Below are positions 1 to 15,078 of a stretch of 25,567 nt of DNA, in pieces. The notes beneath the pieces were generated by a model. That model was not told the origin of the DNA. It made no database searches and was given only the letters and a program-made list of their open reading frames with translations. The DNA is from a virus. Made by a program: the position numbers and the translations under genes. Within the stretch, counting starts at the first letter, position 1. Every line of letters begins with the position of its first letter. The stretch covers positions 1 to 25,567 of IMG/VR virus record IMGVR_UViG_3300036772_000234. The stretch is one strand, 5' to 3'.

Positions 1-1063
1 GTGTGAACTTCAGCTCCATCGAACCACTGCCGATAGCCTGTGCATCTGCCGTGCCTGTCGTTGATCCCGTCGTTGCAAGCAGGATGAGCTGAGCGTTCTG
101 CATCACAAAGCTAAAGCCGACGTCGACTTGCTTCTTGCCGAAGATGAGCGCGGCAAGCACAATGCTTTCCGTCTGAGGGCCATTGACATTGTTCTTCTGC
201 TGGATGTCAAAGCTCTCAATGGCAAGTGCATCGCCTGTCGTTGAGCCATTGATGGTCCATCCGCCGCTGGTCGAGGTGTAAAAGAAGGGCTGGTGGTTTT
301 CGTAGCTGACCGTTGCAGGACTGCCCTGCACGCTGACTGCAATGCCCATCCAGGTGACTTCGTAGGCAAGAAGCTCTCCTGCTTTGCTGCTTCGTTTGAT
401 GGAGTCCACCTTGCAGTCACGGACGCGCATGGTAAGCCCCGCAGCGCCACTGAGGCTACCAATGCCGACCTCGATCGTGTAGTACGGGCTATCGACTTGA
501 TCGATCAAGGTATGCACAGTGAAAGCCCTGACAGCCCCCGCAGAAGTGTGGGCAAGTTTGAGGGCACCGCCGTTGTAGGAAGAGTCAACATTGAGGGTGT
601 AAGGTCCCGATCCCGTAGCAGGGATATCGAATATGGCGATTTCTTCGGTTGCTGTGCCGGGTTCGATGACAAGCACAATGGTTCCACTGCCTGTCAGGCC
701 TGTCTGCGCTGCCAATGAGATGCTCGTTGCACCCACCAAGGTATTGGCACTGAGTGTCGTTGCAACCGATGCTGGGGTCAGGGTATCTGACGCGGTTCCC
801 ATGGCGGCAGCTTCGGTGAAGCCAAGCTCGATCGGGCGCGGGTTGAAGACCTCCGTGACCTTGACTTCCTGTTTCTCTTTGATGACCTGCGAGAGGTGGT
901 CACTGCCATCGCCTTCCCAGATTTCTTTGGCGGTGACATCCCATCCAATCTTTGAGCCATCAAGCCACCGAATGAAGTTTGTCGGAGCTACAGGCGTTCC
1001 TTGCACGGATTGCTTGGCACGCCCGAAATAACTGTTATCATTGCGTATAGGGAGCGTTGGCAT
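1..1063 (-). CDS. Phage major tail tube protein, partial (C-terminus off the left edge)
   Basis: An open frame runs from ATG at 1063 to the left edge without a stop, giving 354 residues of an unfinished protein that begins MPTLPIRNDNSYFGRAKQS. The opening pattern (small protein start, then a G-R-A/V-Q-x-x-x-G-T-P-V-A-P-T segment and a hydrophobic W-L-D-G stretch) is typical of long-tailed phage tail tube proteins that polymerise into the tail lumen. The middle (about residues 90-175) is rich in Thr, Ser, Ala and Gly and looks like an Ig-like or beta-rich insertion. The end region (about 270-354) has alternating beta segments such as ESFDIQQKNNVNG. A GAAGAGG ribosome binding site precedes the ATG, and the upstream gene ends only four bases away. 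The family call rests on sequence character and on its place after the head-tail joining genes. Siphovirus or myovirus cannot be decided because no sheath gene is visible. Confidence 0.7.
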   Translation of the reverse strand, partial: MPTLPIRNDNSYFGRAKQSVQGTPVAPTNFIRWLDGSKIGWDVTAKEIWEGDGSDHLSQVIKEKQEVKVTEVFNPRPIELGFTEAAAMGTASDTLTPASVATTLSANTLVGATSISLAAQTGLTGSGTIVLVIEPGTATEEIAIFDIPATGSGPYTLNVDSSYNGGALKLAHTSAGAVRAFTVHTLIDQVDSPYYTIEVGIGSLSGAAGLTMRVRDCKVDSIKRSSKAGELLAYEVTWMGIAVSVQGSPATVSYENHQPFFYTSTSGGWTINGSTTGDALAIESFDIQQKNNVNGPQTESIVLAALIFGKKQVDVGFSFVMQNAQLILLATTGSTTGTADAQAIGSGSMELKFT

Positions 1064-1066
1064 GTG

Positions 1067-1540
1067 TTATACCTCTTCTGCACTTTCTGCTGCATGGCCA
1101 GCTTCGGTTGCATAGCCTTCAGCGATTTGCGGTGCGACGACCTCTGAAAGTGTCGAGACTTCGGTGGGATCAGAGACCTGCGTGGCTTGCTCAACGCGCC
1201 TCCCCGAAGATGTGATCTCTTCGAAGTCTCCTCTGCCAGAATGGTGCTCATATCCGATTTGCGCCCGTTCCTCTTCCGTGAGGTCAGCGTGCTCTGCCTT
1301 GACTTTCTTGCCTGTTCCTATGCGCTCGCTATCCTTTTCGCGGCGTGGATCATGCCACCATGTTTCCCCGCGTGCTTCGCTCTCGTTGATGTGCAGGGTG
1401 TCTCCCTTGCGGATGCGCAGGGATTTCAGGGGTTTGCCTTGAGCATCAAAGTAGGGCCTTCCGGCAGGTGAAAGCACGATTTCATGCTCTGCGATGTACC
1501 TTGCAGGGACCTTTCCCTTGAGAAGCGGATTGTCTGACAT
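1067..1540 (-). CDS. Hypothetical protein, 157 aa, disordered acidic C-terminus
   Basis: I do not recognise this protein. It starts MSDNPLLKGKVPARYIAEHE; the ATG at 1540 was chosen over a TTG six bases upstream because AAGGAG sits six bases before it. The N-terminal half has a motif-like stretch (LSPAGRPYFDAQGKPLKSLRI, then a charged WWHDPRR segment) that could form a small beta domain. Residues from about 95 on are rich in Glu, Ser, Thr, Val and Ala and look disordered (STLSEVVAPQIAEGYATEAG). It lies between the candidate tail terminator and the tail tube gene, so a role in the head-tail interface or in tail assembly is possible, but this is inference from position only. Confidence 0.75.
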   Translation of the reverse strand: MSDNPLLKGKVPARYIAEHEIVLSPAGRPYFDAQGKPLKSLRIRKGDTLHINESEARGETWWHDPRREKDSERIGTGKKVKAEHADLTEEERAQIGYEHHSGRGDFEEITSSGRRVEQATQVSDPTEVSTLSEVVAPQIAEGYATEAGHAAESAEEV

Positions 1541-1563
1541 ATGCAACTCCTTTCAAGAGGTCA

Positions 1564-2070
1564 TTATTCAATTTCGTCATAGGGTGGGATGCTGATTAAT
1601 AATTCCATCGTTCGATAAATAAGCTTTAAAGGTGCAGCACTCTCATCAAATTCGCCTTTATAGGGTGAAAGTGTTATTCTCGGAATAGCTCGACTTTGCT
1701 GCACGTGTCCACTTCCAATCAATCCCTCATTCTTGCTTACATTGCTTTTCATAATTTCAAGGTCTGCTGCGATGTTGGCACGGATCTCATCGTGCTGCGA
1801 TGGCTGCGATGTCCACTTGTCGTAGTACTCGACAATGGCTAGCAGGGTGCCTTCGTAGTGATTCGGCGAAATCCTATTGTATGATTGCGACCCTGACGAG
1901 AGATGCAATGCGGGGAATTGCGGCCCCTGTGTCATCTCAAACTTTTTCTGTACATAGAACTTCGGCGGTGTCGGCGATATCGCTGCTTGAAGCATTGCCA
2001 TCCGGGTATTAGCAAGGAGCACATTGCCTAGCGCATTCAAGATGACGATATCAGTGTTGGGATTAGCCAC
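1564..2070 (-). CDS. Hypothetical protein, 168 aa, candidate tail terminator/tail completion protein
   Basis: The protein starts at a GTG (MANPNTDIVILNALGNVL) that overlaps the end of the upstream gene by eight bases; AAGG lies about ten bases before it. The N-terminus is a short helix of the sort seen in tail terminator (Gp17/gpU-like) proteins, followed by alternating strands and helices (FPALHLSSGSQSYNR, YEGTLLAIVEYYDKW). No diagnostic motif is present. The assignment comes from order: it follows the HK97 gp10-like completion protein and precedes the tail tube gene, where the tail terminator normally sits. It could equally be another joining protein. Confidence 0.55.
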   Translation of the reverse strand: MANPNTDIVILNALGNVLLANTRMAMLQAAISPTPPKFYVQKKFEMTQGPQFPALHLSSGSQSYNRISPNHYEGTLLAIVEYYDKWTSQPSQHDEIRANIAADLEIMKSNVSKNEGLIGSGHVQQSRAIPRITLSPYKGEFDESAAPLKLIYRTMELLISIPPYDEIE

Positions 2071-2272
2071 GTGCGTCTACCTTGATTGTGATCGTCTGGC
2101 TAGGGTCAACTACCACAGAATTACCCCAAAGAGCCCCTGAGCAGACCGATGCTAGCGGGTTTGGGTTAAGTGCTGTCATGTTGCTAACAAGCGTCTGCGG
2201 TCCCATTGACGGAACACAACCATTTATATTTACCTGTTGGGTTATCTCATGACCGCAATGTGGACAATGCAT
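2063..2272 (-). CDS. Small protein with N-terminal CPHCG zinc-knuckle half, 69 aa
   Basis: The start MHCPHCGHEITQQVNING is fixed by AAGGAG seven bases upstream of the ATG. C3-P-H-C6-G is a typical half of a zinc ribbon. The only other cysteines are C19 and C44, too far apart to complete a classical CxxC pair, so the site may be completed by histidines (H2, H5, H8) or by a second subunit. The rest is Asn-, Pro- and Val-rich and ends in a short strand (SQTITIKVDARG). It lies between the gp10-like and tail terminator candidates. No function is assigned. Confidence 0.65.
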   Translation of the reverse strand: MHCPHCGHEITQQVNINGCVPSMGPQTLVSNMTALNPNPLASVCSGALWGNSVVVDPSQTITIKVDARG

Positions 2273-2286
2273 CTCTTTGCTCCTTC

Positions 2287-2781
2287 TTAATAATCCGCTG
2301 CCTCTTGCAATGCTTCATAGATTGCATCGCTTACCGTCGCATTGATGTCCTCGTCGGCCACATCGGTGATCGGCGATACGAAGTCATTGGGTTCCATGCC
2401 TGCTACGCTTGGCACGGGATGTGCAGCGCCTTCCCAGTACAAAGCTTTCTTGACCTTCGGGTAGATCCTCTGATGCAGAGGCCCGTAAAGTCCCGTGCCT
2501 TCTGTGACGTAGCCAAGCTTTGTTGGCTGGGTTGTCTTCACGGTCATCGTTGAGTCTTCCACGCTTGCATTGAAGCTCTCTGCGAGTGGCCCTGATGCAT
2601 CGCCTTCCGGTGAAGACCCACTGCTGCCTTGCCCGCGTGGAGCTGCACTTGCTAAGTCCTGGACCATGGCATTCCCTGCCTCATCCAGGCTTGCCTTGAT
2701 CACACTAGGCAAATCGGCGCGAAGCTGCGCAAGGCCTTCGAGTTGTCGCTGCAGAGCATTGCCCATGGTGATCTTAAGCAT
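2287..2781 (-). CDS. HK97 gp10-like head-tail joining / tail completion protein
   Basis: This 164-residue protein begins MLKITMGNALQRQLEGLAQL. It has the N-terminal helices (about 1-45) and C-terminal signature of the HK97 gp10 family: a T-G-L-Y-G segment near residue 95, then I-Y-P-K-V-K-K-A-L-Y-W and S-V-A-G-M-E-P-N-D-F-V near residues 105-135, matching the family pattern of I-x-P-K-x-x-K-A-L-x-W followed by G-x-x-P-x-x-F. Such proteins sit at the neck and complete the head-tail joint. The ATG follows the stop of the histidine-rich peptide gene directly (TAG-ATG), so translation is probably coupled to that peptide. Between them there is no room for an independent ribosome binding site outside the peptide gene itself. 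Confidence 0.72.
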   Translation of the reverse strand: MLKITMGNALQRQLEGLAQLRADLPSVIKASLDEAGNAMVQDLASAAPRGQGSSGSSPEGDASGPLAESFNASVEDSTMTVKTTQPTKLGYVTEGTGLYGPLHQRIYPKVKKALYWEGAAHPVPSVAGMEPNDFVSPITDVADEDINATVSDAIYEALQEAADY

Positions 2782-2892
2782 CTATTTGTGCCTTTTGTGT
2801 GTATGTGTCGTTTTCCGATGTGTCGATGTGTGCCGCTTATGGGTATGTGTGCTCTTGCTATGCGATGTATGCCTCTTATGGGTATGGCCCAT
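2782..2892 (-). CDS. Histidine-rich cationic repeat peptide, 36 aa
   Basis: A short open frame from ATG at 2892 to TAG at 2784-2782 encodes MGHTHKRHTSHSKST followed by HTHKRHTSTHRKTT and HTHKRHK. The composition is extreme: 11 His, 10 Lys/Arg, 9 Thr, 4 Ser, one Met and one Gly, with no acidic, aromatic or other hydrophobic residue. HTHKRH occurs three times (residues 3-8, 16-21, 30-35), spaced 13 and 14 residues apart. A perfect AAGGAGG lies nine bases before the ATG, the previous gene stops 18 bases upstream, and the stop codon abuts the ATG of the gp10-like gene. These three facts make translation likely. Clustered His suggests metal or nucleic acid binding, but I know of no matching phage family and no function is claimed. 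Confidence 0.7.
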   Translation of the reverse strand: MGHTHKRHTSHSKSTHTHKRHTSTHRKTTHTHKRHK

Positions 2893-2910
2893 ACTCTTTG
2901 CCCTCCTTGC

Positions 2911-3291
2911 TTATTGCGCTTGCCCACCGCCTGTCACACGCTTACAGTAAAGCTTTCTGTGAGCCAATGGCCCCGCGGCGCTGTTCTGCGGAAAGATCAC
3001 AGTAAGCGTCTCGTTGGCCCCCAGCTCGTCCCAAGGTGTATACAAAGGCGCGTCGATGAGTGTGACCTTGGTGATCGTGTCCTCTGCTACGATATCCGTG
3101 CCAGCCTCAACCTTCACCAAATAATTGCTCGTAAGTGCTGCCTCTGGCATTGTTCGGTAGTCAATGTCCGTCATTGGTCCTGCGTGCGCCTCGATCTCGC
3201 TGAGATACTCCGACGGCGCTGAAGTCCCTGTACTTGGTGAATACTCCGACCTCGACGTCCAGATCAGCACATTTGGGAGGACAACAGGCAT
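2911..3291 (-). CDS. Hypothetical structural-cluster protein, 126 aa
   Basis: The protein starts MPVVLPNVLIWTSRSEYSPS, four bases after the stop of the upstream gene, and ends GGGQAQ. Its second half contains alternating strand-like segments (DIVAEDTITKVTLIDAPLY, NETLTVIFPQNSAAG), compatible with a small beta-barrel joining protein. The position between a connector-like protein and the gp10-like protein fits the slot usually held by the head closure or stopper protein of long-tailed phages, but no motif proves that. The ribosome binding site is weak (GTAGAG) and overlaps the upstream stop, suggesting coupled translation. Confidence 0.65.
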   Translation of the reverse strand: MPVVLPNVLIWTSRSEYSPSTGTSAPSEYLSEIEAHAGPMTDIDYRTMPEAALTSNYLVKVEAGTDIVAEDTITKVTLIDAPLYTPWDELGANETLTVIFPQNSAAGPLAHRKLYCKRVTGGGQAQ

Positions 3292-3295
3292 AGCT

Positions 3296-3613
3296 CTACT
3301 CGACTTTCAAGGGCAGAACAACGTGCAGAGCTGTGAGCTTGTAGCTTTCCTCTTTATGCCATTCACCTTCCTTGTGACCCTCGCTTGCCTCGAACTTCGC
3401 AATGAGATCAGGGATATCCAGGCCTTCTGCGGTCTCAGGGATATCCGGCGATGAGACCGTGATATGCAGTCGGCCTTGGTCTCCATGCTTGACCTGCTCA
3501 ACTTGGTAGGAAGCAGGGAGCTTCAAGAGATCCTTGACATCGCTATGGCCTTTTCCGTGTGCAAACCACTCTGACCCATGTTTCGCGTCGATTTTGATAA
3601 TTGCTTTACCCAT
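3296..3613 (-). CDS. Hypothetical protein, 105 aa
   Basis: The start MGKAIIKIDAKHGSEWFAHG was chosen at the ATG at 3613, which lies about ten bases after AGGAGA; an ATG seven codons upstream would overlap the previous gene and has no such site. The sequence is hydrophilic with an even spread of charge and an amphipathic segment (DIPDLIAKFEASEGH). It ends with a predicted strand (LTALHVVLPLKVE). I do not recognise the family. It belongs to the tight head-tail joining cluster and is probably cotranslated with its neighbours. Confidence 0.65.
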   Translation of the reverse strand: MGKAIIKIDAKHGSEWFAHGKGHSDVKDLLKLPASYQVEQVKHGDQGRLHITVSSPDIPETAEGLDIPDLIAKFEASEGHKEGEWHKEESYKLTALHVVLPLKVE

Positions 3614-3626
3614 ACTGTTATTTCTC

Positions 3627-4553
3627 CTAAGCAACGGGAATACCTTGATAATCGAAGAGGCACGCAGCGGCCTTCTCGCAGAGTGCCTCGACCCGTGTTA
3701 CCCCTCGTACTTGCCTGATCCTCTGGATTTGCTGATCCCCGCTCTTGGCAAGATCTAATCCGCCCATTCCCTGCTTGCTCAAAGCTCGCTCTTCAAGCAG
3801 ATCCGTGACTTGTTTGATCGTTGCCTCACGGACAGCATCAGGAATGGTCGCTGTGTAGTCCGCTGTGATCGTTGGGCTCCCTGTCTGCTCCGTGTTGAAG
3901 GTCACGCGGCCTTCGGTGTAGTTCACTGAGTAGAGCGATGAGCTGACAATGGACCCATTGCTATAGACCACAGGTGGCACGGCAGGGAGCTGATTGGGCT
4001 GTATGTGCTTCGCTGCCTGATAGCTGCTTGCCCAAAATCCACGAACAGCTTGGTAGTTCTTGTTGTCCCCGACGTTAATCAGCGCCTCACCAAAGAATGC
4101 ATTGTAGAAGCAGCAAAAGCAGTCCATCTGTATCAAGGGATTGGAAAGGCCTAGTTGCAGAATGACAGGACTCAACGAATAGGTGATGGCTTGGAGTGGC
4201 ACAATCTCGACATACCCCGCAAACGGTGCAATCACTGCATCGCCTGGATTGATCGTGGCATAGAAACCACTGCCATCCTCGCTGAGATTGGATACCTGTA
4301 TCCTGTACCGCGCCACACTCTGAATAGGCACGGGATGGCTTGGGAAGCGGATTTGACGTTTTTTGTCATCCCACTTCTGTTCGAACCAGACATTGTGAGG
4401 CTCAAACCCGCCGACTTTCATGTCGAACTTCATGAAGGCATCCACGGCAGTCTCAGCGCGTGCAATGTAGTTATTCAATGAGATATCAGTGATCCCACTC
4501 AAGGAAACACCTGTATCCTGATCTTTATACATTTGCACCGAAAGGTATTTCAT
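3627..4553 (-). CDS. Head-tail connector/adaptor-like protein, 308 aa
   Basis: The protein begins MKYLSVQMYKDQDTGVSLSG and is preceded by GAAGG about ten bases before the ATG. The N-terminal part (about 20-45) is helical (TDISLNNYIARAETAVDAFM), like the first helix of phage adaptor proteins that read a DNA-end slot under the portal. The middle (about 60-240) is beta-rich with Pro and aromatic residues. A long C-terminal helix pair (about 240-295) includes the segment VREATIKQVTDLLEERALSK. Adaptor proteins normally follow the capsid gene, as here. It is longer than the usual 100-150 residues because of the central beta-rich domain. The call is by helix pattern and position, not by a signature motif. 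Confidence 0.5.
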   Translation of the reverse strand: MKYLSVQMYKDQDTGVSLSGITDISLNNYIARAETAVDAFMKFDMKVGGFEPHNVWFEQKWDDKKRQIRFPSHPVPIQSVARYRIQVSNLSEDGSGFYATINPGDAVIAPFAGYVEIVPLQAITYSLSPVILQLGLSNPLIQMDCFCCFYNAFFGEALINVGDNKNYQAVRGFWASSYQAAKHIQPNQLPAVPPVVYSNGSIVSSSLYSVNYTEGRVTFNTEQTGSPTITADYTATIPDAVREATIKQVTDLLEERALSKQGMGGLDLAKSGDQQIQRIRQVRGVTRVEALCEKAAACLFDYQGIPVA

Positions 4554-4575
4554 TGCCGTTTTGCCTTCTATGCCA

Positions 4576-4794
4576 CTAGACTAGCGCATGGTTCCAACTA
4601 TGCCGCTCTGGACTGGTGTTGTGAGGCACCTGCGTTGCGGTCTCCAATTGACCATCCCTGTCATAGGTCAGATCTGCGAAGGCATTGCCGTTCTCTTCCG
4701 TGAGATTGGTGATGGTTGCCTCATGGATTTGACCGTCTTGGTCGATATAGTTTGCCTTGTCGCCTTCTGCTGTTTCTCTGTTATTGATTATCAT
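4576..4794 (-). CDS. Hypothetical small acidic protein, 72 aa
   Basis: This 72-residue protein starts MIINNRETAEGDKANYIDQD after AAGGAAA. It consists of short strand-like segments (QIHEATITNLTEENG, NAFADLTYDRDGQLETAT), a pattern seen in small SH3-like phage accessory or decoration proteins. It ends HSWNHALV. It sits 22 bases upstream of the connector-like gene. No family is recognised, and the function is unknown. Confidence 0.65.
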   Translation of the reverse strand: MIINNRETAEGDKANYIDQDGQIHEATITNLTEENGNAFADLTYDRDGQLETATQVPHNTSPERHSWNHALV

Positions 4795-4809
4795 GCGTTG
4801 CTTTCCTTG

Positions 4810-5325
4810 CTATGCGCTTCTATCATGGAACCACACGGTAAAATCACCCGGAGTGCCCGACAACGTATAGAATAGACCCCTGTTTATTCTGCCTTTGTCG
4901 ATCTTCGTGTCATTGCCTGACGCTGGTTTGATCACGGCAATGGCAGTGCCTGCAGGGGTTGCGTTGGGATTGCCGTCGTAGAGCGTGAGCACAACGCTCG
5001 TCCCTGGATCATTGACCACGACGTCGCCGATATCCACCGTGCGCTGCGAACTAATGACATAGCCCCCGCTGTGGTTATTCACAAAGTCGGCAGTGAATGT
5101 CGAGGATGTCACGGATTTGACCAGGACGTCCTCGAATGTTCCTGTGCCACCTGAGAAGTTGAGCCACCTGCCGGGCGTAATATTGGTCATGTCGGCAGGC
5201 GTGACGACCACATTGCTTCCTGCAGTGATGGTCGTCACTGATGTCGTTGCCACATTGTTGCCAATGGCGGCAGCGGTTGATTGGACAGCCGTGATATGGG
5301 AAGGCCTGTATTGCCAATGAGACAT
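4810..5325 (-). CDS. Beta-rich virion protein with a module shared with its neighbour, 171 aa
   Basis: Two adjacent ATGs follow AGGAGG; the second, at 5325, has the better five-base spacing and gives MSHWQYRPSHITAVQSTAAA. Residues about 30-95 form a Thr/Val/Gly-rich module (VVVTPADMTNITPGRWLNFS, then a VLVKSVTSSTFTADF stretch and a small NNHSGG end). The same order of segments occurs in the adjacent 5335-6036 gene. The C-terminal part ends FYTLSGTPGDFTVWFHD and is compatible with a small beta-sandwich. Position after the capsid gene fits a head decoration or spike-like protein. Function is inferred from composition and place only. Confidence 0.62.
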   Translation of the reverse strand: MSHWQYRPSHITAVQSTAAAIGNNVATTSVTTITAGSNVVVTPADMTNITPGRWLNFSGGTGTFEDVLVKSVTSSTFTADFVNNHSGGYVISSQRTVDIGDVVVNDPGTSVVLTLYDGNPNATPAGTAIAVIKPASGNDTKIDKGRINRGLFYTLSGTPGDFTVWFHDRSA

Positions 5326-5334
5326 CATGGCCTC

Positions 5335-6036
5335 CTAGCCCGCAAAGCCGCGTCCTTGCGCAAGCACCATGTCCAGCTGCACAGTTACCGCCGGACTTGC
5401 CAAGCCTGTGCTGTTCGAGCTCACTCGCTTGAACGTGATAATGTCGCCTGGGTGGATACTGTTGGCAGTGTACTGCGTCGCAATCTCATGGGGCGTCAAG
5501 GCGGTCTCATTGGTCCCCGATGCGTAGGTCACACTTGCAAGTGGAGCAGAAACCACATTCCATGTGCTTGAGTGAGTATTGGCAAAGGTAGCCGTGAAAG
5601 TCGTCGCAGTCTTGCTGGTCACAATGACTGTCTCAGCGCTTGCCCCTGCATCTACAAGCAAAGCTGTGCCAACCGCGATATTTGTCATGCTGCCAGGGGT
5701 GATTTCTACGCTTCCCGCTGCACCCACAGCAGTCGAGGTTGTGGTACTTACCAGCAGAGCTCCTGCTCGTTTTTGCAAGACCTGCCATGTGAAATTGTTG
5801 GTTGCCGCGCCTGTGAGATTGGCCTCTGTCACAAGGTTGACCAAGCGTGCACGGAGATCATTGAGTGGCAGTGCGCCCGCCTGGCCTGTCCCTGCAAGCT
5901 TTGTCAGGTCTGGTACCACACCCAGCACATGCTCATAGTCAGTCGCCGAACCTGCCGTGGCAGATGGGATAAGCATGGCAGGGAAACCAAGCGGATAGTC
6001 CCTGTGGAGTCCAATGAATTCAGAGATCAGCGCCAT
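5335..6036 (-). CDS. Beta-rich virion protein, 233 aa, candidate head decoration or fibre-like protein
   Basis: The protein starts MALISEFIGLHRDYPLGFPA after GGAGG five bases upstream. The first 75 residues contain helices (LPLNDLRARLVNLVTEANLT). Residues about 105-165 hold the module VEITPGSMTNIAVGTALLVD, then VIVTSKTATTFTATFANTHS, which is shared with the next gene downstream. The remainder is beta-rich and ends with a strand segment PAVTVQLDMVLAQGRGFAG. Such a Met-Thr-Asn-Ile plus T-T-F-T-A-T/D-F pattern recurs in phage surface proteins in my experience, but I cannot name a family. It is most likely on the virion, close to the capsid. Confidence 0.62.
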   Translation of the reverse strand: MALISEFIGLHRDYPLGFPAMLIPSATAGSATDYEHVLGVVPDLTKLAGTGQAGALPLNDLRARLVNLVTEANLTGAATNNFTWQVLQKRAGALLVSTTTSTAVGAAGSVEITPGSMTNIAVGTALLVDAGASAETVIVTSKTATTFTATFANTHSSTWNVVSAPLASVTYASGTNETALTPHEIATQYTANSIHPGDIITFKRVSSNSTGLASPAVTVQLDMVLAQGRGFAG

Positions 6037-6038
6037 GA

Positions 6039-6518
6039 CTACCTCCGTGTCTCTGGCAGGTGCTTGCCAAGATTATCAATGAGCTCTTTGAGACGTTCAG
6101 CGCCAAGCTGCGTTGCCAAGGCTTCAAGGTCAACCCCTGCGAGCTGCGACATGAACTGCTCAACTGGCATCGGCTTGATCCCTGTAGCCCGTGCAAAGTC
6201 TGCTTCGGTTGCATCACTTGGAAGCACAGCCTGGATGCTGATCTTTCCGCAGATTTGATCGTTCTTGCCGTCGGCCCGTGTGCCACGTTGCCAATGCTTG
6301 ACAGTGCTGTAGGGGACATTGCGAGCAACGCCTCCCTTGAAGAGGACCTTATCAACGAATTGCTTTGATTCTGGCAGGACCTTGTTCCACCCATAGAGGA
6401 CAGTGACCTTCTCGTAGTCCTCGAATTCCTTGGGCTTCTCCAAGACAGCAGTGGCGGTCCCTGCTTGCGTTACCTCGTCACCCTGCTTTTGTTCGTTCTC
6501 TTTTTCTTTGCTAGACAT
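6039..6518 (-). CDS. Hypothetical protein, 159 aa, directly after the capsid gene
   Basis: The protein starts MSSKEKENEQKQGDEVTQAG; GGGAG lies eight bases before the ATG. The first 30 residues are charged and probably disordered. The middle (about 35-110) carries the segment KVTVLYGWNKVLPESKQFVD and a YSTVKHWQRG stretch, and the end is helical (LATQLGAERLKELIDNLGKH). It ends three bases before the next ATG, so the two genes are likely cotranslated. No known family is recognised. Its place right after the capsid gene is where adaptor or decoration proteins are found. Confidence 0.68.
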   Translation of the reverse strand: MSSKEKENEQKQGDEVTQAGTATAVLEKPKEFEDYEKVTVLYGWNKVLPESKQFVDKVLFKGGVARNVPYSTVKHWQRGTRADGKNDQICGKISIQAVLPSDATEADFARATGIKPMPVEQFMSQLAGVDLEALATQLGAERLKELIDNLGKHLPETRR

Positions 6519-6534
6519 TCTCTGTATCTCCCAA

Positions 6535-6553
6535 GAGGGGCGCGATGCCCCTC
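6535..6553 (-). terminator. GC-rich hairpin after the capsid gene
   Basis: On the minus strand GAGGGGC and GCCCCTC form a seven-base-pair perfect stem with a five-base loop, in the 60-base gap between the capsid stop and the next start. No run of T follows (TTGGGAG), so it is at best a weak terminator. It could instead be an attenuator or an RNA-stability hairpin that lets capsid mRNA outnumber its downstream message. Confidence 0.45.
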
Positions 6554-6578
6554 ATTGCATTCCTTGAAAATCAGTGGC

Positions 6579-7260
6579 TTACGATGCTAAGCGGCGAACC
6601 TTTGTGCAGAAGGACGGAGCAGCTATTTCAAGCCCAAACATCCCAAAAATTATCCACCTGGATGATAGGACACCATCAACACCGGAAGGTATTTGAAGCA
6701 CGGTGAAGCTTTCGCTGTACAGCCATGGGATAGCGATGTGATCTTCGTCTAAGATATAAATATCCTCGACTAGGGCACTATCACTTGTGCGGTTGTAGGT
6801 GCCGCCTGTAGAGCCTGGGAAGGGGATGATCAACAGCTCATCCTCAGAGTAGGTCAAGGAAGAGACACGGGTACCAGGGATCAAATCCCTGAGATTGGCA
6901 GAGGCGTCGTATCTCACGTTCGACATCTGTTCGTCATCAAAGGCTTGCTTCGAATTGAGAGACATAAAGGCAAGCTTCGGAGTGCCGCCGTTGTTCGCAG
7001 CTTGGGTTGCACCGAAGCGTAGAGACTCCGTGATGTTCAAAGACGAGACATCGACCTGCGTTGCACCATTGCCAGCGAATGAGCCAACAGATCCGAGCAC
7101 GCCACGGAAGCCATCAAAGCCGTTTGCGTTGTACTTTCCTTTTTCGGTGGTTGCGTCGGCAGACGGTGTATTCGAGGCATTGCCTTGCAGGATAAAGTAC
7201 TGGATATCCTGTGCGAGCTTGACCATTCCATTCAAATCTGTTACCTCGTAAGCTTCCCTG
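6579..7260 (-). CDS. Major capsid protein, exon 2 (C-terminal part)
   Basis: This exon supplies the C-terminal 227 residues of the split capsid protein. The reading frame is open before the first TTG (position 7235): the residues REAYEVTDLNGMVKLAQDIQ can be read continuously from the intron edge. The following segment carries the long spine helix and A-domain-like strands of the HK97 fold (IQYFILQGNASNT, then the terminal EIAAPSFCTKVRRLAS). There is no ribosome binding site or ATG near the open part, which argues that the exon is expressed only by splicing. The proposed 3' splice site is after a G at 7261, with 7257 as an alternative one codon shorter. Joined with exon 1 it gives 428 (or 427) residues. 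Confidence 0.75.
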
Positions 7261-8591
7261 CCTACGTGACTACCTCATTTCTGGGTAGTTCTGCACCTTC
7301 ATTTAGGTTATACGTGCAGTTCGGACTATATCATCCCTTTCGGGTCTCGCGTGTAGTCTCTAGGGAGCCCCTTTCGGGTTTCCTCGGGATTGCGCTCCTC
7401 AGCGGTTTCCCCGATATAGCGAGATTTGCGCATATAGCAGCCTATTGCTCTTCACTTAAGATCTGTCGAAACAGTTCAACATAGTGAAGTTCTCGATTTT
7501 TGATTTTTGTGTGACACTTTTTGCAAAGAGTGATCCCGTTCTCAAGATCGTGTCCACCTCCCTGTTCGACAGGAAGGATATGGTGTATCTCAAGTTTCCA
7601 GGCATCGGAACATTCACATCGAGGCATTTTGCAGCGATATCCATCGCGTTCTAGGATAGCATGGCGTTCAGCGGCACTGAACTCATTCCCAAAACGTGTT
7701 GTTGGTATGGCAGTACGTTCGTAAGTGCGATTGCCGCCTTGGCGCTTCCCTGTACGGGCGGGAACACCATAGGCTTTCATCCATCGCTGCACGGTTGTGC
7801 CGCTTACCTGATACTGCTCTGCAATTTGCCGACGGCTTAACTTTTGCTCAATATAGAGATGCTCTAGCTCCTCTTTGGAAAGAGGAATTTCACGTGGCAT
7901 ATTTATCAAAGGTCGCTCGGGGTCTAACCCATAAGTCTTGATTAGTCCCGATACCTTGCCGTGATGGCATCCATATTGAGCAGCTATGCGTACAGATGTT
8001 AAGCCTTGGACAACGTGAAGTTCATGTAAAAGCTCTTTGCTCAAAAGCTTCTTCACGGGTACATACCGCTTTCGCGGAATATCATAGTCTACAAAAAGCT
8101 TGTGAAGAGTAGCTTTGCCATAGCCAAGCTCCTTGCCAATGGACTCCCAGGTACGCCCTGATTCTCGCTGTTCTAAGAGCCATTCCTTGGTTGGGCGCTC
8201 TTTACGATAGCGTATATTTCTTACTGGGATTCCGTGCTTGCTTAGCGCGTAATAAACAATCGATTCGGTTGTGTTTAAGCGCTTTGCAACTTCTTCTACG
8301 GCTAGACCTTCTGTTACGTAAAGTTGCTCTAAGGGTGCCTTGTCAATAGTCGGCACGGATTTTGCCCGTCTTGGAATACCATAGCCCTTTAGCAAATTAT
8401 GAATAGCGAAAGGATGGCATTCTACCATGTCGGCAATTTTCCTTATGCTTAGCAACTCTACTGTGTACATACGCTCTAACCAAGCCTTTGTAGGCTGTCC
8501 GCTTGCATCAAGTTCGATATTTTTAAACTCATCCATGCAAGCAGTATATACCTTACACGTTCAAAAGTCGAGATGTGCAACCTTTTAGGCT
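7261..8591 (-). ncRNA. Group I intron interrupting the major capsid gene
   Basis: The RNA between the exons folds by eye into a group I core. P3 is UCUCGC (7424-7419) with GCGAGA (7350-7345). P4 is UCGGG with CCCGA, P5 is CGCU with AGCG. P6a and P8 are hairpins that both use CCCGAAAGGG (7378-7369 and 7344-7335). P7 is GACUA (7358-7354) with UAGUC (7328-7324), followed by the typical AUAUAGUCC signature. P9-type stems are CUGCAC/GUGCAG and ACUACC/GGUAGU. The 5' splice site is proposed after the U at 8592, where AUGGU-AGCC pairs with GGUUGC-A-CAU (one bulged A, U-G pair at the site). The open frame of the endonuclease lies between P1 and P3. The intron is 1331 bases. The exact 3' end (7261 or 7258) is uncertain. 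Confidence 0.8.
7442..8536 (-). CDS. Intron-encoded homing endonuclease: five HTH repeats and a C-terminal HNH nuclease
   Basis: This 364-residue protein begins MDEFKNIELDASGQPTKAWL. Five repeats of about 42 residues follow, each a helix-turn-helix ending in a Y-G-I-P/L-x-R type cap: about 15-57, 65-107, 114-156, 163-205 and 218-262. The HNH domain (about 283-355) has C302 and C307/C309, the catalytic-type H318-H319, N333 and C338-x-x-C341-H342, matching the HNH zinc-finger pattern of WHH-independent HNH nucleases. It would cut intronless capsid genes and spread the intron. The start has only a weak UAAGGU site and lies in the 5' part of the intron, so expression is probably low. The stop codon of the truncated exon 1 frame (8587-8585) lies just upstream. 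Function is inferred from domains and context. Confidence 0.9.
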   Translation of the reverse strand: MDEFKNIELDASGQPTKAWLERMYTVELLSIRKIADMVECHPFAIHNLLKGYGIPRRAKSVPTIDKAPLEQLYVTEGLAVEEVAKRLNTTESIVYYALSKHGIPVRNIRYRKERPTKEWLLEQRESGRTWESIGKELGYGKATLHKLFVDYDIPRKRYVPVKKLLSKELLHELHVVQGLTSVRIAAQYGCHHGKVSGLIKTYGLDPERPLINMPREIPLSKEELEHLYIEQKLSRRQIAEQYQVSGTTVQRWMKAYGVPARTGKRQGGNRTYERTAIPTTRFGNEFSAAERHAILERDGYRCKMPRCECSDAWKLEIHHILPVEQGGGHDLENGITLCKKCHTKIKNRELHYVELFRQILSEEQ

Positions 8592-9196
8592 ACCATACGG
8601 GGCCAATGTTGTTTAGCCATTTCGGTCAACTCTGGACTGTACGATGGTGGACTACCGCCAGCTTCAACAGCGGCAATCTCTTTAAGTGTCACGCCGCGCC
8701 CAGTGCCGAAGACTGCAATCGGAAACGTCAGCTTGTCATAGCTGCCAGATGTATAGTTAACTGATCCCGTCTCTGTGATCACAGTTGATCCAAGCGATCC
8801 AGTGTCAGGCGCAGTAACCCTCGTTGCTTGGTGCACTAAACCATTCGAAGGTTTTTTGGCAATGCGCTCAAAAACAGGAAACCGCTTAATAAAGATGCTA
8901 TGGAGCGTCGGCTCTAGATCTTGACGCAAAAGAACGTTTCCGGTGGTTCCGTTCGTTGAGTCCAAGATGCTCTTAATGCTGTTTGGAACAATGGGAGAGC
9001 TATGAATTTCACCGAGAACCTTTGATGTCAAGCTGCTCTCATCGCGAATTGCGGGGGCGTTGTTGATCAGGTGTTTGAGTTGCTGTTTCAGCTCATTCTC
9101 GGTCATCGTACGGAGGTTCTCGTTGATGATCCTCTGCCGATCCTGAGCATATTTGGTGTCGTGCGGGTGTTGCACGGCAGTGAATGTATTAGACAC
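8592..9196 (-). CDS. Major capsid protein, exon 1 (N-terminal part)
   Basis: Exon 1 starts at GTG (MSNTFTAVQHPHDTKYAQDR) with AAGGAG seven bases upstream and supplies residues 1-201 plus two bases of codon 202. Residues 25-60 are helical and resemble a delta-domain or N-arm; residues about 95-175 carry beta segments such as VTAPDTGSLGSTVITETGSV and the P-domain-like end TLKEIAAVEAGGSPPSYSPE. Without splicing the frame continues two codons and meets a TAA at 8587-8585, giving a truncated 203-residue product. The capsid role is inferred from placement after a protease/scaffold gene, from the strong dedicated promoter and from the fold-like pattern. The intron near a conserved capsid region is typical of homing sites. 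Confidence 0.78.
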
Positions 9197-9344
9197 GATG
9201 TAGCTCCTTGTTCCTTCAAGGATTGCACCGTTGTGTCGAGGCTTTCATTGGATGAGGCCTGTCATAAGCGCTCTTGGCTATGATGGCAGGATCTCTTCCT
9301 CAGCTGCTCACGTGGCGTGGGCTGTAAGTAGTGTTGTTGTGAGA

Positions 9345-9374
9345 ATAGTACAACCTATCGCAAGGTGTTGTCAA
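9345..9374 (-). promoter_or_regulatory. Sigma-70-type promoter for the capsid transcript
   Basis: The minus strand has TTGACA (9374-9369, perfect -35) followed after 18 bases by TACTAT (9350-9345, 4 of 6 -10 match). It lies 150 bases upstream of the capsid GTG, with a start of transcription expected near 9338 and a leader of about 140 bases. Pentamers ACAAC, GTTGT and ACAAC flank and overlap the -10 (9372-9368, 9355-9351, 9341-9337 approximately), an arrangement that could bind a regulator. Capsid protein is needed in large amounts, so a strong internal promoter makes sense. Confidence 0.6.
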
Positions 9375-9402
9375 GGCCTATCCAAGAATACAAGGATAGG
9401 CC
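9375..9402 (-). terminator. Perfect 9-bp hairpin at the end of the protease gene
   Basis: GGCCTATCC and GGATAGGCC form a perfect nine-base-pair stem with a ten-base loop. It starts 11 bases past the protease stop codon. Only two T residues follow before the promoter -35 begins, so termination would be weak. The stem and the promoter abut directly, which would separate the protease/scaffold message from a stronger capsid message. Confidence 0.5.
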
Positions 9403-9413
9403 CTAACTTTGCC

Positions 9414-11441
9414 TTACGCAGGGACGTTCAATGGATCGTCATAGCAGGGAACACAGGCCTCTTTGCCATCCCTGTATGCCAAGCATTCAGCGCCATGCAT
9501 GTACTTGCGCTGGTCACTTGTGAGCTCTGGGCGTACCCCGTCCTGGATGGAGCCGCCGACGCCTTCGGGCCACTTGCGATAGTTCATGACTTCGCCGCTG
9601 CCGAGTGTGCGCGGCACGACAATGGTTGCCTTGAGTGCCTCATCGAGAGACCATCGCCGCTCATTGCTATTCATAGACGCAGCAGAGAGCGCCTTGAAGT
9701 CATCGTAGGTCGCTACGTCGCCGTTCTGTTGCACACCTCTACGCAAGAGGGTAGGTTGACCCAAGGGAACATTAGCAAGCTTGGCAAGATGCTCCTCTGC
9801 CGCTTTGGCTCTCTCTTCAGCGGCCTTGGTTTGTGCCTGGATATCCTTGAGTTGCCTCTGCGTCTCCTTGAGTGCCTTGGGATCGATACCGTTCTTTACT
9901 AAGACATCGACAAGGGCAGCAACATCTTTTCGAAGATCAGTAACTTGCACATGCAGTGGGCCAATCTCTGATTTGATGTCCAGCAGTTGTCCGAACTGCT
10001 TCTGCTCATCACCCCCATTGCCATCATCGGGATTATCAGTGCTATCCCCATCGTCGCTGCCTTCGGAAGCTTCCATTTCTTTGCAGGGATGGAAGCTTGA
10101 TTTGCACATCTGGACCATGCCATCATGGAGAGATTGGAGCTTTTCACGGTTCTCTTTGCTAAATTCAGAGCCACCCTTGGTCACTTCCACGAAATTCAAG
10201 GTCTTGGCAATGACTTCCTGGACTGACTCAGGGGTCAGCTCAGGGAAGGCCTTGGGGGCAGCGATCTGTCCTTGCGCGTCAAGGACGAGCTGGGGTTGAC
10301 CAAGCTCAGATGCTAGCAGATTATACATCTGTACTTTCAAAGCGTCGGCGGGACTTTGCTTGACCCCGTGCTCCTCTGCTTTGGCCTCAACGGGTGACTC
10401 TTCCTCGACTTCAACGGATGTCTCTGTTACTTCAGTGTCAGCATCGGCATTGTCAGCAGTGGCTGTCTCTTCGGAAACAGTGATCTCCTCTGCTTCTTCC
10501 TTGATATCCGTGTCCACGCTCTCTATAGGATCAACACTCTTGATTTCTGTCTTCTCAGTTTGGTCCACGGTGGTTTCCTCCTTTACGGCGGGCTTTGCAA
10601 TACGCGGCATCTCAATGCCTTTTGCCATGAGAGCAGTGACCTCATTGCGATTGAGGACCTGAGACTTCTGTGATCCCTTGGTGCTCATCGCGAACATTTT
10701 TTCGGCAGGGAGCCACTCCACGCGTTGATTTGACGTTGGCCGTGCCGTGACCCGTTCAAGGTCTTTGCGTAGAGGTTCATTGCTCATTTTCTTGAGGTAT
10801 TCCTCGTAGGCCTTGGGGTAGAGCCCTTTGACGGCAGGGGCTAAACGCAGCGCTTCATCGCCGCGGTCCTGGGATGCCAAGCGCTCAAAGAGGCCCTTCG
10901 CTGCCATCTCGACCCAGCAACGTTGATTGGCAGGGATACCAACGACCGACCACTCCAAGGTTTGCACGTGAGTGATGATGAGTGGGGGATACCAACTATG
11001 CCCATCGTCGTTCTCTTCATCGATCTCGCATTCGAGAACCATGCAGCCGATGGAGCACCCAAGCTTCCTATTGTTCTTGACCAGCTTCAAGGTCTGAGCA
11101 GCTGCAGGATTATCCATCTCCACATCGCTTTTAATGTGGATATCAGCAATACCATTTTGCAGCTCCAACCTTGGTGATTCCATGAGGGACCCAAAGAGAT
11201 CATTGGGAACATCGTAGCTATGATTGAGCCAAATAGTGAGTCCAGGCTCGACCGTCGCCATGTCAGAGAGTGCACTGATTGCCATGGTATCGCCATGCAG
11301 GTCTCTCTCAGTCGAGCTGCCGATCATGCGCACGATGTTCCCTTGCTCAGGATCGATCTCCATGGCGCTGGTGTGGATTTTGAAATCCGGTGTGACCAAA
11401 GGGCCGCCCGCCGTGAGCAGACCTGCAGACGATATCTTCAT
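9414..11441 (-). CDS. Prohead protease fused to scaffold domain, 675 aa
   Basis: The N-terminal domain (about 1-190) is a HK97-type (U35-like) prohead protease: catalytic-type His in WLNHSYD (H74), nucleophile-type Ser in KLGCSIGC (S130), and the strand LEWSVVGIPANQRC (162-175). Residues about 285-360 are a strongly acidic low-complexity stretch (KEEAEEITVSEETATAD). Residues about 485-560 form a charged coiled coil (the segment TQRQLKDIQAQTKAAEERAK), expected for an internal scaffold. The last 90 residues are unusual: they contain a LLRRGV segment and a Cys-rich end (HGAECLAYRDGKEACVPCYD). The protein should assemble the procapsid, then cut the scaffold and itself. It is one of the larger fusions of this type. 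The start ATG has a weak AAGGT site. Confidence 0.82.
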   Translation of the reverse strand: MKISSAGLLTAGGPLVTPDFKIHTSAMEIDPEQGNIVRMIGSSTERDLHGDTMAISALSDMATVEPGLTIWLNHSYDVPNDLFGSLMESPRLELQNGIADIHIKSDVEMDNPAAAQTLKLVKNNRKLGCSIGCMVLECEIDEENDDGHSWYPPLIITHVQTLEWSVVGIPANQRCWVEMAAKGLFERLASQDRGDEALRLAPAVKGLYPKAYEEYLKKMSNEPLRKDLERVTARPTSNQRVEWLPAEKMFAMSTKGSQKSQVLNRNEVTALMAKGIEMPRIAKPAVKEETTVDQTEKTEIKSVDPIESVDTDIKEEAEEITVSEETATADNADADTEVTETSVEVEEESPVEAKAEEHGVKQSPADALKVQMYNLLASELGQPQLVLDAQGQIAAPKAFPELTPESVQEVIAKTLNFVEVTKGGSEFSKENREKLQSLHDGMVQMCKSSFHPCKEMEASEGSDDGDSTDNPDDGNGGDEQKQFGQLLDIKSEIGPLHVQVTDLRKDVAALVDVLVKNGIDPKALKETQRQLKDIQAQTKAAEERAKAAEEHLAKLANVPLGQPTLLRRGVQQNGDVATYDDFKALSAASMNSNERRWSLDEALKATIVVPRTLGSGEVMNYRKWPEGVGGSIQDGVRPELTSDQRKYMHGAECLAYRDGKEACVPCYDDPLNVPA

Positions 11442-11447
11442 AGTGAA

Positions 11448-11864
11448 CTACTTACCTTTCTTGCTAGTATCAGGAACCGATGGAAGCTGAACAGTATCAG
11501 CGGTTGTGCTGTTGTCAGTGCTAACCTCTGCTGTGCTTGTCGATGCCTCACTCTGCGATGCAGGGGCCACAGGGATAGGCTGTGTGGTCTCAGTGCTCTC
11601 TGGCTCCACTGCCACAGGTGCAGGCGCTGCAGGCAGATCAGCAGGGCTTTCCGGTGTGGTGAACGGACCAAACATACGAGGCTGATTGATCCCGTTGGCC
11701 AAGTGGACAAAGAAGTCCTTGACTGCTTCCCAATCTTTACGTGGGTCCAGAATGACTTTAAGTGTAGCGACTTTCGAGCCGTTCTCTTCGCCGACATGGA
11801 CACCGAGGACCTCCTGGATATCGTCAGCGGGCTCAATGACGTCATTTCTGTTTGAATGAAACAT
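11448..11864 (-). CDS. Hypothetical protein, 138 aa, disordered Ser/Thr-rich C-terminus
   Basis: The ATG at 11864 (MFHSNRNDVIEPADDIQEVL) was chosen because AAGGAG lies eight bases before it; an upstream ATG would overlap the previous gene without a ribosome binding site. Residues about 10-65 have alternating charged and hydrophobic segments (VHVGEENGSKVATLKVILDP) that could form a small alpha/beta domain. From about residue 75 the chain is almost only Pro, Ala, Ser, Thr, Glu and Val (TTPESPADLPAAPAPVAVEP) and is probably disordered. It stops seven bases before the protease/scaffold ATG. A role as capsid assembly accessory is possible, but no family is recognised. Confidence 0.7.
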   Translation of the reverse strand: MFHSNRNDVIEPADDIQEVLGVHVGEENGSKVATLKVILDPRKDWEAVKDFFVHLANGINQPRMFGPFTTPESPADLPAAPAPVAVEPESTETTQPIPVAPASQSEASTSTAEVSTDNSTTADTVQLPSVPDTSKKGK

Positions 11865-11869
11865 GTGTT

Positions 11870-12079
11870 TTACTCCTTGTTGTTTGATGTGCTTGCCTCT
11901 TGGCAAGGGATAATAGTTGGGAAAGGAATAGCAATCGTTGAGCCACCCGTTGAAATGCGAGGAGGCTCAAAGAGCTGCCGCCATGCCATCTCATAGCTTT
12001 GCCAGGACATTCCAAGCAAGGCCATGGCTTTCGCGGCCTCTGGGTGCTCTTGCCTGAAATCTTCAAATGATTGGGTCAA
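11870..12079 (-). CDS. Small protein of a tandem paralog pair (second copy), 69 aa
   Basis: The protein starts at TTG 12079 (MTQSFEDFRQEHPEAAKAMA); the stop of the upstream gene overlaps it as TTGA and AGGAGG lies six bases upstream. The sequence aligns with the upstream neighbour: MTQ-F-x-x-x-x-Q-x-H-P-x-x-A-K-A at the start and a Pro-Phe-Pro end (AIPFPTIIP). Residues 10-40 are a helical bundle-like segment with a Trp (SWQSYEMAWRQLFE). It is not recognised as a family. Position between the head-morphogenesis-like gene and the protease/scaffold gene suggests a role in head assembly, inferred only. Confidence 0.68.
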   Translation of the reverse strand: MTQSFEDFRQEHPEAAKAMALLGMSWQSYEMAWRQLFEPPRISTGGSTIAIPFPTIIPCQEASTSNNKE

Positions 12080-13002: not shown

Positions 13003-13688
13003 GGGTTGCCAGGCCATTCGGTGAGATCAGGGACAAAGCTTACTAACTCTTCTAGGGCTGATGCAGATTGCGGAATTCCCATAACATGACCAGCAAAGTC
13101 ATAGAAGCGACGGGTTATAATCTTTTGCCAAGCGGGGATACACTTACCGCGCCACGTTTTGCCTTCTGGAATACCTCCATTGAAATCACGACGAATAGCC
13201 GCCTCTAGCTCATCCCAGAGCAGCTTTGCAAACCCTGCAAACTGTGTGTCGCGGGGATCTTGTAGCACCTCCAACGCTTCCGACCCAGCGCAATCATCGC
13301 TTTCCTCTGCAAGCTCCTTGATCCCCATGTTCACTTTGCATGCCTTGTCCTCCTCTTTGATGGCAGAGACGCCATTGATCAAAATGTCCGATAGAGAGAT
13401 GGTCCTCGTTTTGAAGTCCTCGCTGTTCTCATTGAGATAGCAGGGTGTCACCGTAGGCAATGCCTCTCCCGCTGCGATCTCAGGGATATCAAGGCAAGAG
13501 ACAATGATCTCTGCAGAGTCACGATAGGGGCCATAGATAGGCTTGTGCACTCTTTCGACTGTGTACCGATCAGGGAGAAGCAATGCCTCCTTGAGCTTGC
13601 CAAGGTTGATCAATGCAGGGTCAATGGTCAGGTCAAAGTAATCCTTGAATGCAGAGATAGGGTTGACGCAGATAATACCTTGCGGCAT
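12999..13688 (-). CDS. Hypothetical protein, 229 aa
   Basis: The protein begins MPQGIICVNPISAFKDYFDL after AAGGAG. It is rich in Asp, Glu and Cys, with a mixed alpha/beta character (PIYGPYRDSAEIIVSCLDIP, NMGIKELAEESDDCAGSEAL) and a charged C-terminal half (LWDELEAAIRRDFNGG). I see no catalytic motif and do not recognise the family. It lies between RtcB and the head-morphogenesis-like protein and overlaps the latter by four bases. Its cotranscription suggests a role near the portal or as an RtcB-associated accessory, but neither is supported by sequence. Confidence 0.7.
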   Translation of the reverse strand: MPQGIICVNPISAFKDYFDLTIDPALINLGKLKEALLLPDRYTVERVHKPIYGPYRDSAEIIVSCLDIPEIAAGEALPTVTPCYLNENSEDFKTRTISLSDILINGVSAIKEEDKACKVNMGIKELAEESDDCAGSEALEVLQDPRDTQFAGFAKLLWDELEAAIRRDFNGGIPEGKTWRGKCIPAWQKIITRRFYDFAGHVMGIPQSASALEELVSFVPDLTEWPGNP

Positions 13689-13704
13689 GGTCTTCTCCTT
13701 CCTG

Positions 13705-15078
13705 CTAATTCAGTCCCTTGAGTGACGATAGGGGCCATAGTCGGTACTGTACTGTTGCTAGCCCTGCCTGGACAACGGCTTGCACTACCTGCTCACTGCT
13801 CTTGTAACATGCTCCTGCTTCATCAATTGGAACATCAGCATTGTCATTCACGATAATTCCCTCTTTCCAGTAAAGAGCGTTGACTTCTTGCTGATTGAGT
13901 TGTCGCTTCGCAGCGCCACGGGAAAGCCTCCTGCCAGCCCCGTGATTTACAGAGAATGCCGATTTTGCAGCGCCTTCCAATGGTTGCAAAATGAAGCTGT
14001 AATCATGGTTGCTTCCAGGGATGAGCACTGGATGGCCCGTGTGTTCCCATCGAGTCCCTTGCAGGTAGGGATGTCCGGCAGGAAGGGCACGTGTTGCACC
14101 TTTGCGATGGACCCAAGCTTGCCCTAGTTCAGGCCCACACCATTCGAGCTGAACAAGGTTATGCGAGATCTCGTAGATCAGCTCTAGAGGCCCTCCAAAC
14201 ACTTCTTCGAAAGCCTCTGCTATCTGCTCAAAGATAATGATGCGGTTAATAATTGCAAAGTTCCCACCAGCATTGACAGCATTTAGATATCCCTCCCAGT
14301 GCGGTGAGTCTGGTGTGAAGTATCCAAGATCAATATGCTTTTGCTCAGGGTGCTCTTGCTTTGCAAGCTCAAAGTAATTCGTTGCAAGACCATGACCAAA
14401 TCCGCGAGATCCGGTGTGAACTTGCACGAAAAGCGTGTTTGTCTCTAAACACCGCTGAAGTTCTTGGAAGTGGTTGCCGCTACCGAGAGAGCCTAATTGG
14501 CGCATTCCCCTCTCAGGCTTGCCCTTACCTCCATAAGGGATACTCCACTCATCATCCACCGGCAACCGATTACGCTCTGCATAGCTGCGATCGATGCGGG
14601 ACCCATACTTTGAGGTATAGTATTCCGCGCCGCCACGCACAAGATTTTCGAATTCCTGCTCATCAAGTTTTGCTAGTTTCTTTGAGTTGCCTCCCATACC
14701 CATCTCAACGCGCTTCATTGTTGCCTTATTGAATGCAAGGCGCTTCTCAGGTGTCGCTGCATCCCACGGCACATTCGACCGTGCCGACATCATTCCGCAG
14801 CCAATATCGAACCCTACCGGACCCAAGCATAAGGTACCATCAGTAACTAAAACACATCCTATTGGAACACCATACCCGACATGGACATCAGGAGTGATAC
14901 ACACCAATTTAACTCCTGGAAAGGCAGTGGCATTACATATTTGTTTGTAGATATCGTCCTCTGCATCAATCAGGAGTTGCTCTGTAAGGAAGAGCCTCAC
15001 CTCGACTCCATTGGTATCATCGGTTGCAAGGCGATAAAAGCCTTGCTCATCCCAGATTGCTTCGTTTTTCCAATTCAT
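13705..15078 (-). CDS. rtcB: RtcB-type RNA ligase, 457 aa
   Basis: RtcB joins RNA ends with a 2',3'-cyclic phosphate and 5'-OH, using GTP and Mn2+. The family signatures are present: C94 in FDIGCGM (metal), H203 in GSLGSGNHFQE, H221 in VHTGSRGFGH, H306 in YEISHNL, the HRKGATRALPAG segment (324-335) and the guanylated histidine H379 in SVNHGAGRRLSR. Length matches short bacterial RtcB. One segment normally read P-G-S-M-G-T-x-S-Y is here PGSNHDYSF (354-362), a notable change at the nucleotide site. The start is supported by AAGGGA and lies inside the end of the upstream gene (32-base overlap). In a phage it most likely repairs tRNA cut by host anticodon nucleases; its place in the head gene block is unusual. 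Confidence 0.95.
   Translation of the reverse strand: MNWKNEAIWDEQGFYRLATDDTNGVEVRLFLTEQLLIDAEDDIYKQICNATAFPGVKLVCITPDVHVGYGVPIGCVLVTDGTLCLGPVGFDIGCGMMSARSNVPWDAATPEKRLAFNKATMKRVEMGMGGNSKKLAKLDEQEFENLVRGGAEYYTSKYGSRIDRSYAERNRLPVDDEWSIPYGGKGKPERGMRQLGSLGSGNHFQELQRCLETNTLFVQVHTGSRGFGHGLATNYFELAKQEHPEQKHIDLGYFTPDSPHWEGYLNAVNAGGNFAIINRIIIFEQIAEAFEEVFGGPLELIYEISHNLVQLEWCGPELGQAWVHRKGATRALPAGHPYLQGTRWEHTGHPVLIPGSNHDYSFILQPLEGAAKSAFSVNHGAGRRLSRGAAKRQLNQQEVNALYWKEGIIVNDNADVPIDEAGACYKSSEQVVQAVVQAGLATVQYRLWPLSSLKGLN

Follow-up and report, generated by a model that had tools for sequence, protein, structure and literature searches.

A probable gene for a short histidine-rich, acid-free peptide between putative connector genes in a small clade of uncultured tailed phages

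Proteins of the J/VP8 kind in microviruses are short (<70 residues), strongly basic (pI 12.9 for VP8 of SpV4), and almost free of acidic residues; they show poor sequence conservation with their charge kept, are produced along with the virion proteins, and bind the packaged DNA (PMC11281519). J of phiX174 and VP8 of SpV4 are the closest analogues in kind of the peptide described here, the predicted product of the p36 gene in the window, that is, the whole 25.6-kb stretch of DNA analyzed, an IMG/VR virus contig; p36-type peptides are likewise short and strongly basic, and they have no Asp or Glu. The basic residues of J/VP8 proteins are, however, Arg and Lys, whereas the window peptide has 11 His against 10 Lys plus Arg and its counterpart in the relative L028 has 28 His against 11; only that of the relative L018 is dominated by Arg. 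The J/VP8 phages are tailless ssDNA phages with no packaging motor, whereas the p36 phage is of the tailed kind, with genes for TerL, portal, protease, and connector. In tailed phages a motor packages the DNA, a basic internal peptide is generally unneeded, and there are no typical basic capsid arms (PMC7096446), so that finding one at their neck would be out of the ordinary.

The gene order at the locus follows the framework of SPP1 genes 16, 16.1, and 17 (connector stopper, HK97-gp10-like, and tail-to-head joining), with the peptide gene between the putative equivalents of genes 16 and 16.1. In SPP1, by contrast, no gene lies between these two, which overlap in the published table, and their border is the seam of the connector and tail modules and a place of gene exchange (PMC6316719). 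Iron sites rich in His have been described in phage receptor-binding proteins, including that of phi11 (PMC4901313) as well as T4 gp37 and others (PMC11705849). The HxH iron sites of T4 gp37, the phi11 receptor-binding protein, and R22Y gp12 belong to phage structural proteins and show the HxH spacing that the peptide has in the window and L028, though not in L018; they lie inside large trimeric folded tail proteins, whereas the p36 type is a free ORF of 36–67 residues among connector genes at the neck. Hpn of Helicobacter is a small His-rich protein for metal storage. The His content of Hpn-type proteins is comparable to that of the L028 peptide (42%); unlike them, the p36 peptides are strongly cationic, contain neither Cys nor acidic residues, and occur in a context of phage morphogenesis genes.

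The initial annotation described p36 as encoding a 36-residue peptide with 11 His, 6 Lys, and 4 Arg, no acidic or aromatic residue, and HTHKRH three times; these counts were correct, and the strand, which it had not given, is the minus strand (36 codons read from 2892 to 2782). The AAGGAGG before the gene and the contact of its stop codon with the gp10-like gene were also present as described. The AAGGAGG lies 9 bases upstream of the p36 ATG, and few ribosome binding sites in the cluster are as strong; the TAG (2784–2782) is followed without a gap by the start codon of the gp10-like gene, an ATG beginning at 2781. The virion genes on the minus strand of the window comprise those for TerL, portal, an RtcB-like RNA ligase, protease, MCP, adaptor, p126, the His-rich ORF, the gp10-like protein, and others (Table 1). 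The placement in a head-tail joining cluster was borne out by the next gene, which is HK97-gp10/Neck1-like, and by the upstream 308-residue gene, which weakly matches head-tail adaptor profiles.

Table 1. Positions and properties of features in the window and in its relatives.
Feature	Contig	Coordinates	Strand	Size, composition, or sequence	Basis or remark
p36, His-rich cationic acid-free peptide	window	2782..2892	minus	36 aa; MGHTHKRHTSHSKSTHTHKRHTSTHRKTTHTHKRHK	open frame ATG...TAG, composition, shuffles, same-slot ORFs in L028 and L018
p36 ribosome binding site	window	2902..2908	minus	AAGGAGG	sequence; comparison with other cluster genes; match in L028
HK97-gp10/Neck1-like gene (SPP1 gp16.1 position), right edge of slot	window	2287..2781	minus		phrog_5, psiM100 ORF16
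p126, conserved, upstream of p36, left edge of slot	window	2911..3291	minus		homologues in same place
p112, accessory, between adaptor and p126	window	3296..3634	minus		tblastn, ORF lists
Probable head-tail adaptor	window	3627..4553	minus	308 aa	phrog_442, weak in 5 of 5 homologues, best E 9.1e-5
Slot ORF	L028 (IMGVR_UViG_3300021560_000819)			67 aa; 28 His, 5 Lys, 6 Arg, 0 Asp/Glu; MAVSHRHHRHSAHSHGSHKGTHRVSHHHGTHKHHKATVHHGHKHSHHRHNATHHRVSHSHHVHHARK	
Slot ORF	L018 (IMGVR_UViG_3300012201_000004)			49 aa; 9 His, 1 Lys, 13 Arg, 0 Asp/Glu; MTRRRTHRAHRVRVHRARVHRPHKARVTHMRVVHHNISHRAYMFRLYGA	
Slot ORF, unrelated, acidic	G004 (L008)	1215-1481	minus	88 aa	own ribosome binding site
p126-peptide junction	window	2892-2911			in phase
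p126-peptide junction	L028	15383-15399			in phase
p126-peptide junction	L018	6334-6344			in phase
MCP gene, split (region 6579-9196)	window	8585-9196 and 6579-7235	minus		two parts around HNH ORF
HNH endonuclease ORF	window	7442-8536			within split MCP gene
Probable group I intron core	window	7312-7487			Rfam RF00028, E 2.2e-6, under gathering score
MCP insert	L028	8592-9713			after residue 98; HNH ORF on opposite strand
MCP insert	L005	14801-15925			after residue 98; HNH ORF on opposite strand
RtcB-type RNA ligase gene	window	13705-15078	minus		phrog_1075, E 8e-68
Repeats resembling p233 and p172	L023 (57-kb relative)	13521-14943			several copies

The gp10-like protein matched phrog_5 (tail completion or Neck1) through two of four homologues (best E 8.5e-6), the window copy alone matching weakly (E 0.0037), and the L028 homologue showed 54.5% identity over 44 residues with psiM100 ORF16, an HK97 gp10 family protein (E 5e-10). 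The identity of the relatives with the window copy was 35–42%, and an AlphaFold model of this protein (pLDDT 63) had no convincing match among solved structures. The p126 protein showed 56–60% identity with its homologues in L028 and G004, and 50% with that in L018 (also G006). It gave no convincing family match, its AlphaFold model (pLDDT 41) was too poor for assignment, and by position only it is possibly the connector stopper. The accessory p112 gene was present in L028, and was not found at this place in G004 or G006 by tblastn or in ORF lists.

The MCP gene of the window is split around an HNH endonuclease ORF with a probable group I intron core; in G001 nothing separates the two MCP parts. 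The MCP inserts of L028 and L005 are at a different place from that of the window, suggesting independent intron-like insertions into the same gene. The RtcB-type ligase gene lies between the portal and capsid genes, and its product could repair tRNAs cut by host defense. The 57-kb relative contains several repeats of stretches resembling the window p233 and p172, a pattern that looks like duplication of a repeated domain.

We compared the interval bounded by the p126 and HK97-gp10-like genes, here called the slot, among relatives of the window. A TerL search gave five contigs (G001–G005), the adaptor added the 57-kb contig L018/G006, and an MCP alignment added L028, whereas protein-level scans using p126 alone or the gp10-like protein alone found no relatives. 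Only G004, G006, and L028 reach the slot; G002 stops inside p126. No prophage relative was found in adaptor and MCP searches of genome contigs, and megablast of window positions 1–12000 against phages gave no match. Short His-rich ORFs, for which the initial annotation had suggested a search between the stopper-like and gp10-like genes of related phages, occupied the slot of L028 and L018, but not that of G004, which holds an unrelated 88-residue ORF. The L028 ORF starts with TTG and has AGGAGG six bases before it; that of L018 has no strong ribosome binding site near its ATG and no relaxation of the third codon position. The unrelated ORF in G004 indicated that the p36-type gene is dispensable or replaceable and that the slot is a point of exchange, and the lack of the peptide in G004 excluded a universal neck function.

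The three peptides (36, 49, and 67 residues) consist of His, Lys, and Arg to 47–58%, have no acidic residue, no Cys, and few hydrophobic residues, and have a pI of 12; between relatives His is traded for Arg, with cation content and the absence of acidic residues retained. A content of at least 18% His without Asp or Glu was found in exactly three of the 2941 distinct ORFs of the clade (at least 25 residues), all three of them slot ORFs, only 17 of the 2941 overlapping these slots, and in none of 1392 control ORFs from seven stretches of other phage records; the 18% threshold was chosen after seeing the L018 member, and the exact odds should therefore not be over-read. No His-rich acid-free ORF was found in the checked stretches of Tunturi_4, P23-45, phiFa, Hardycor1, psiM2, and OnionKnight, which are wider relatives or gp10 carriers. 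Pairwise alignments of the peptides exceeded composition-preserving shuffles modestly (fractions of shuffles reaching the score, 0.018, 0.128, and 0.002), so that common descent of the three is plausible but unproven. The p36 type thus far comprises three members, all on metagenome contigs, which appear to be fast-evolving short peptides that keep composition more than sequence.

Dinucleotide shuffles of p36 gave 4.1 ± 1.6 His, and 11 His was reached in none of 2000; the slot genes of L028 and L018 likewise never reached their own His counts in 2000 gene-level shuffles each, and in 100 shuffled windows none of 45,282 ORFs of at least 25 residues had 30.5% His or more. The entropies of the three codon positions of p36 were 1.38, 1.64, and 1.99 bits, and both CAT and CAC were used for His. 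The constraint on positions 1 and 2 with a nearly uniform third position is the pattern expected if selection acts on the amino acids and not on a DNA repeat. The p36 gene is mildly repetitive, with three partial copies of a 24-nt direct repeat at spacings of 42 and 39 nt, and some duplication may have shaped the gene. Antisense ORFs over the window slot were rejected as candidates; in L028, two of the three antisense frames and all sense alternatives except one contain stops.

None of the three peptides matched a profile of Pfam, PHROGs, or NCBIfam at E up to 1, low complexity limiting such searches, and the 67-residue peptide (tblastn) and its gene (distant blastn) found nothing among phages, a result made uninformative by the low-complexity filter. 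No description of such a peptide was found in literature searches. Retention of the odd composition, and hardly of the sequence, in relatives indicated a real gene of an undescribed kind, and p36 is very probably a real gene. Within its small clade of uncultured phages, p36 is a small gene, not described before, that is kept by composition. The recurrence of this composition in the same slot of two divergent relatives, the strong ribosome binding site in the window and one of these relatives, and the absence of a family match lend good support to the earlier proposal that p36 is real, is translated, and falls outside the described families.

The p36 product is probably disordered and would bind nucleic acid or metal, either within the virion or around it. 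The initial annotation had suggested metal binding, an internal peptide binding RNA or DNA, or a factor released with the DNA. p36 would be a late gene of the structural operon, expressed at the same time as the connector and tail-completion genes, and the composition of the chain suggests that it would be disordered. Charge and His content have been retained better than the sequence, and this points toward a disordered peptide with affinity for polyanions; the exchange of His for Arg with cations kept fits charge as the retained property. Such a peptide would bind polyanions, most plausibly DNA, whether inside the head or where head and tail join, and may act as a mobile counter-ion in or around the virion; since much of it is His, its charge would rise as the pH falls. 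The location between a probable connector gene and a gp10/gp16.1-like gene argues for this role, whereas the small number of members, the unrelated acidic ORF in the G004 slot, the lack of a strong nearby ribosome binding site and of third-position relaxation in L018, and the general ability of motor-packaging phages to do without a basic internal peptide argue against it. The polyanion-binding mechanism as a whole is put forward tentatively, with somewhat less than even confidence. It is conceivable, but rather doubtful, that the peptide is an undescribed virion component, a disordered His/Arg/Lys chain placed where head and tail meet, holding or condensing the end of the DNA (or metal) in a pH-sensitive manner and being released or rearranged at ejection.

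The main rival to polyanion binding is metal or pH sensing via His. The His residues in HxH and HxxH arrangements might chelate Zn, Ni, Cu, or Fe and thereby stabilize or cross-link the neck or tail, or load the particle with metal. HxH and HxxH spacings are frequent in the window and L028 peptides, with three HxH in the former and 11 in the latter, which also has eight HH pairs, and the iron sites of the phi11 receptor-binding protein and T4 gp37 provide a precedent; however, the L018 peptide has no HxH, with 13 Arg against 9 His, the peptides offer no Cys or acidic ligands, and the known phage sites belong to folded trimers, not to a free peptide. The data speak more for a cationic function in general than for a strict metal site, and we regard metal binding as possible but unlikely.

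It is likewise considered unlikely that p36 encodes an accessory ("moron") peptide that is parked at the border of the head and tail modules and targets the host in late infection, for instance as a cationic peptide active on membranes or ribosomes. The slot is replaceable, as seen in G004, the nearby p112 gene likewise comes and goes, and SPP1 genes 16.1–17 have been described as acquired into this conserved position (PMC6316719). However, p36 has no promoter or terminator pattern of its own beside it on the coding strand, the peptide gene is tightly and co-directionally packed with morphogenesis genes in all three phages, and very few hydrophobic residues are available for membrane activity.

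The peptide might also represent the C-terminal tail of p126, either through stop-codon readthrough or as a piece split from a longer ancestral p126, because in each of the three phages its reading frame agrees in phase with that of p126 (chance 1 in 27) and the p126 end just ahead of it is glycine-rich. The separating stops differ, however (TAA, TAG, and, in L018, TAG with a second in-frame TAA), and in the window and L028 a strong ribosome binding site lies within the spacer, which makes this origin improbable.

The leader of the histidine operon is the model for attenuation at His codons. A similar leader peptide, at which the ribosome would sense charged tRNA-His and control the next gene, could account for a short frame rich in His codons with a strong ribosome binding site and contact with the next start codon; nevertheless it is very improbable, as no terminator-like site was found on the minus strand between 1500 and 4700, the RNA folded slightly better than shuffles (z −1.5), a leader of 67 residues, as in L028, would be rather long, and in L018 His gives way to Arg. 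A chance open frame on repetitive DNA, to which the three 24-nt direct repeats in the window gene might point, is scarcely credible given the agreement of two divergent relatives in slot and composition, the shuffles, the codon-position pattern in the window and L028, and the ribosome binding sites.

Short low-complexity genes tend to escape gene callers and profile libraries, and a peptide that is retained solely by its composition where connector and tail genes meet would therefore be an overlooked structural or accessory class of phage proteins. If the p36 peptide does bind DNA or metal at the neck, this would bear on how tailed phages retain and release their pressurized DNA.
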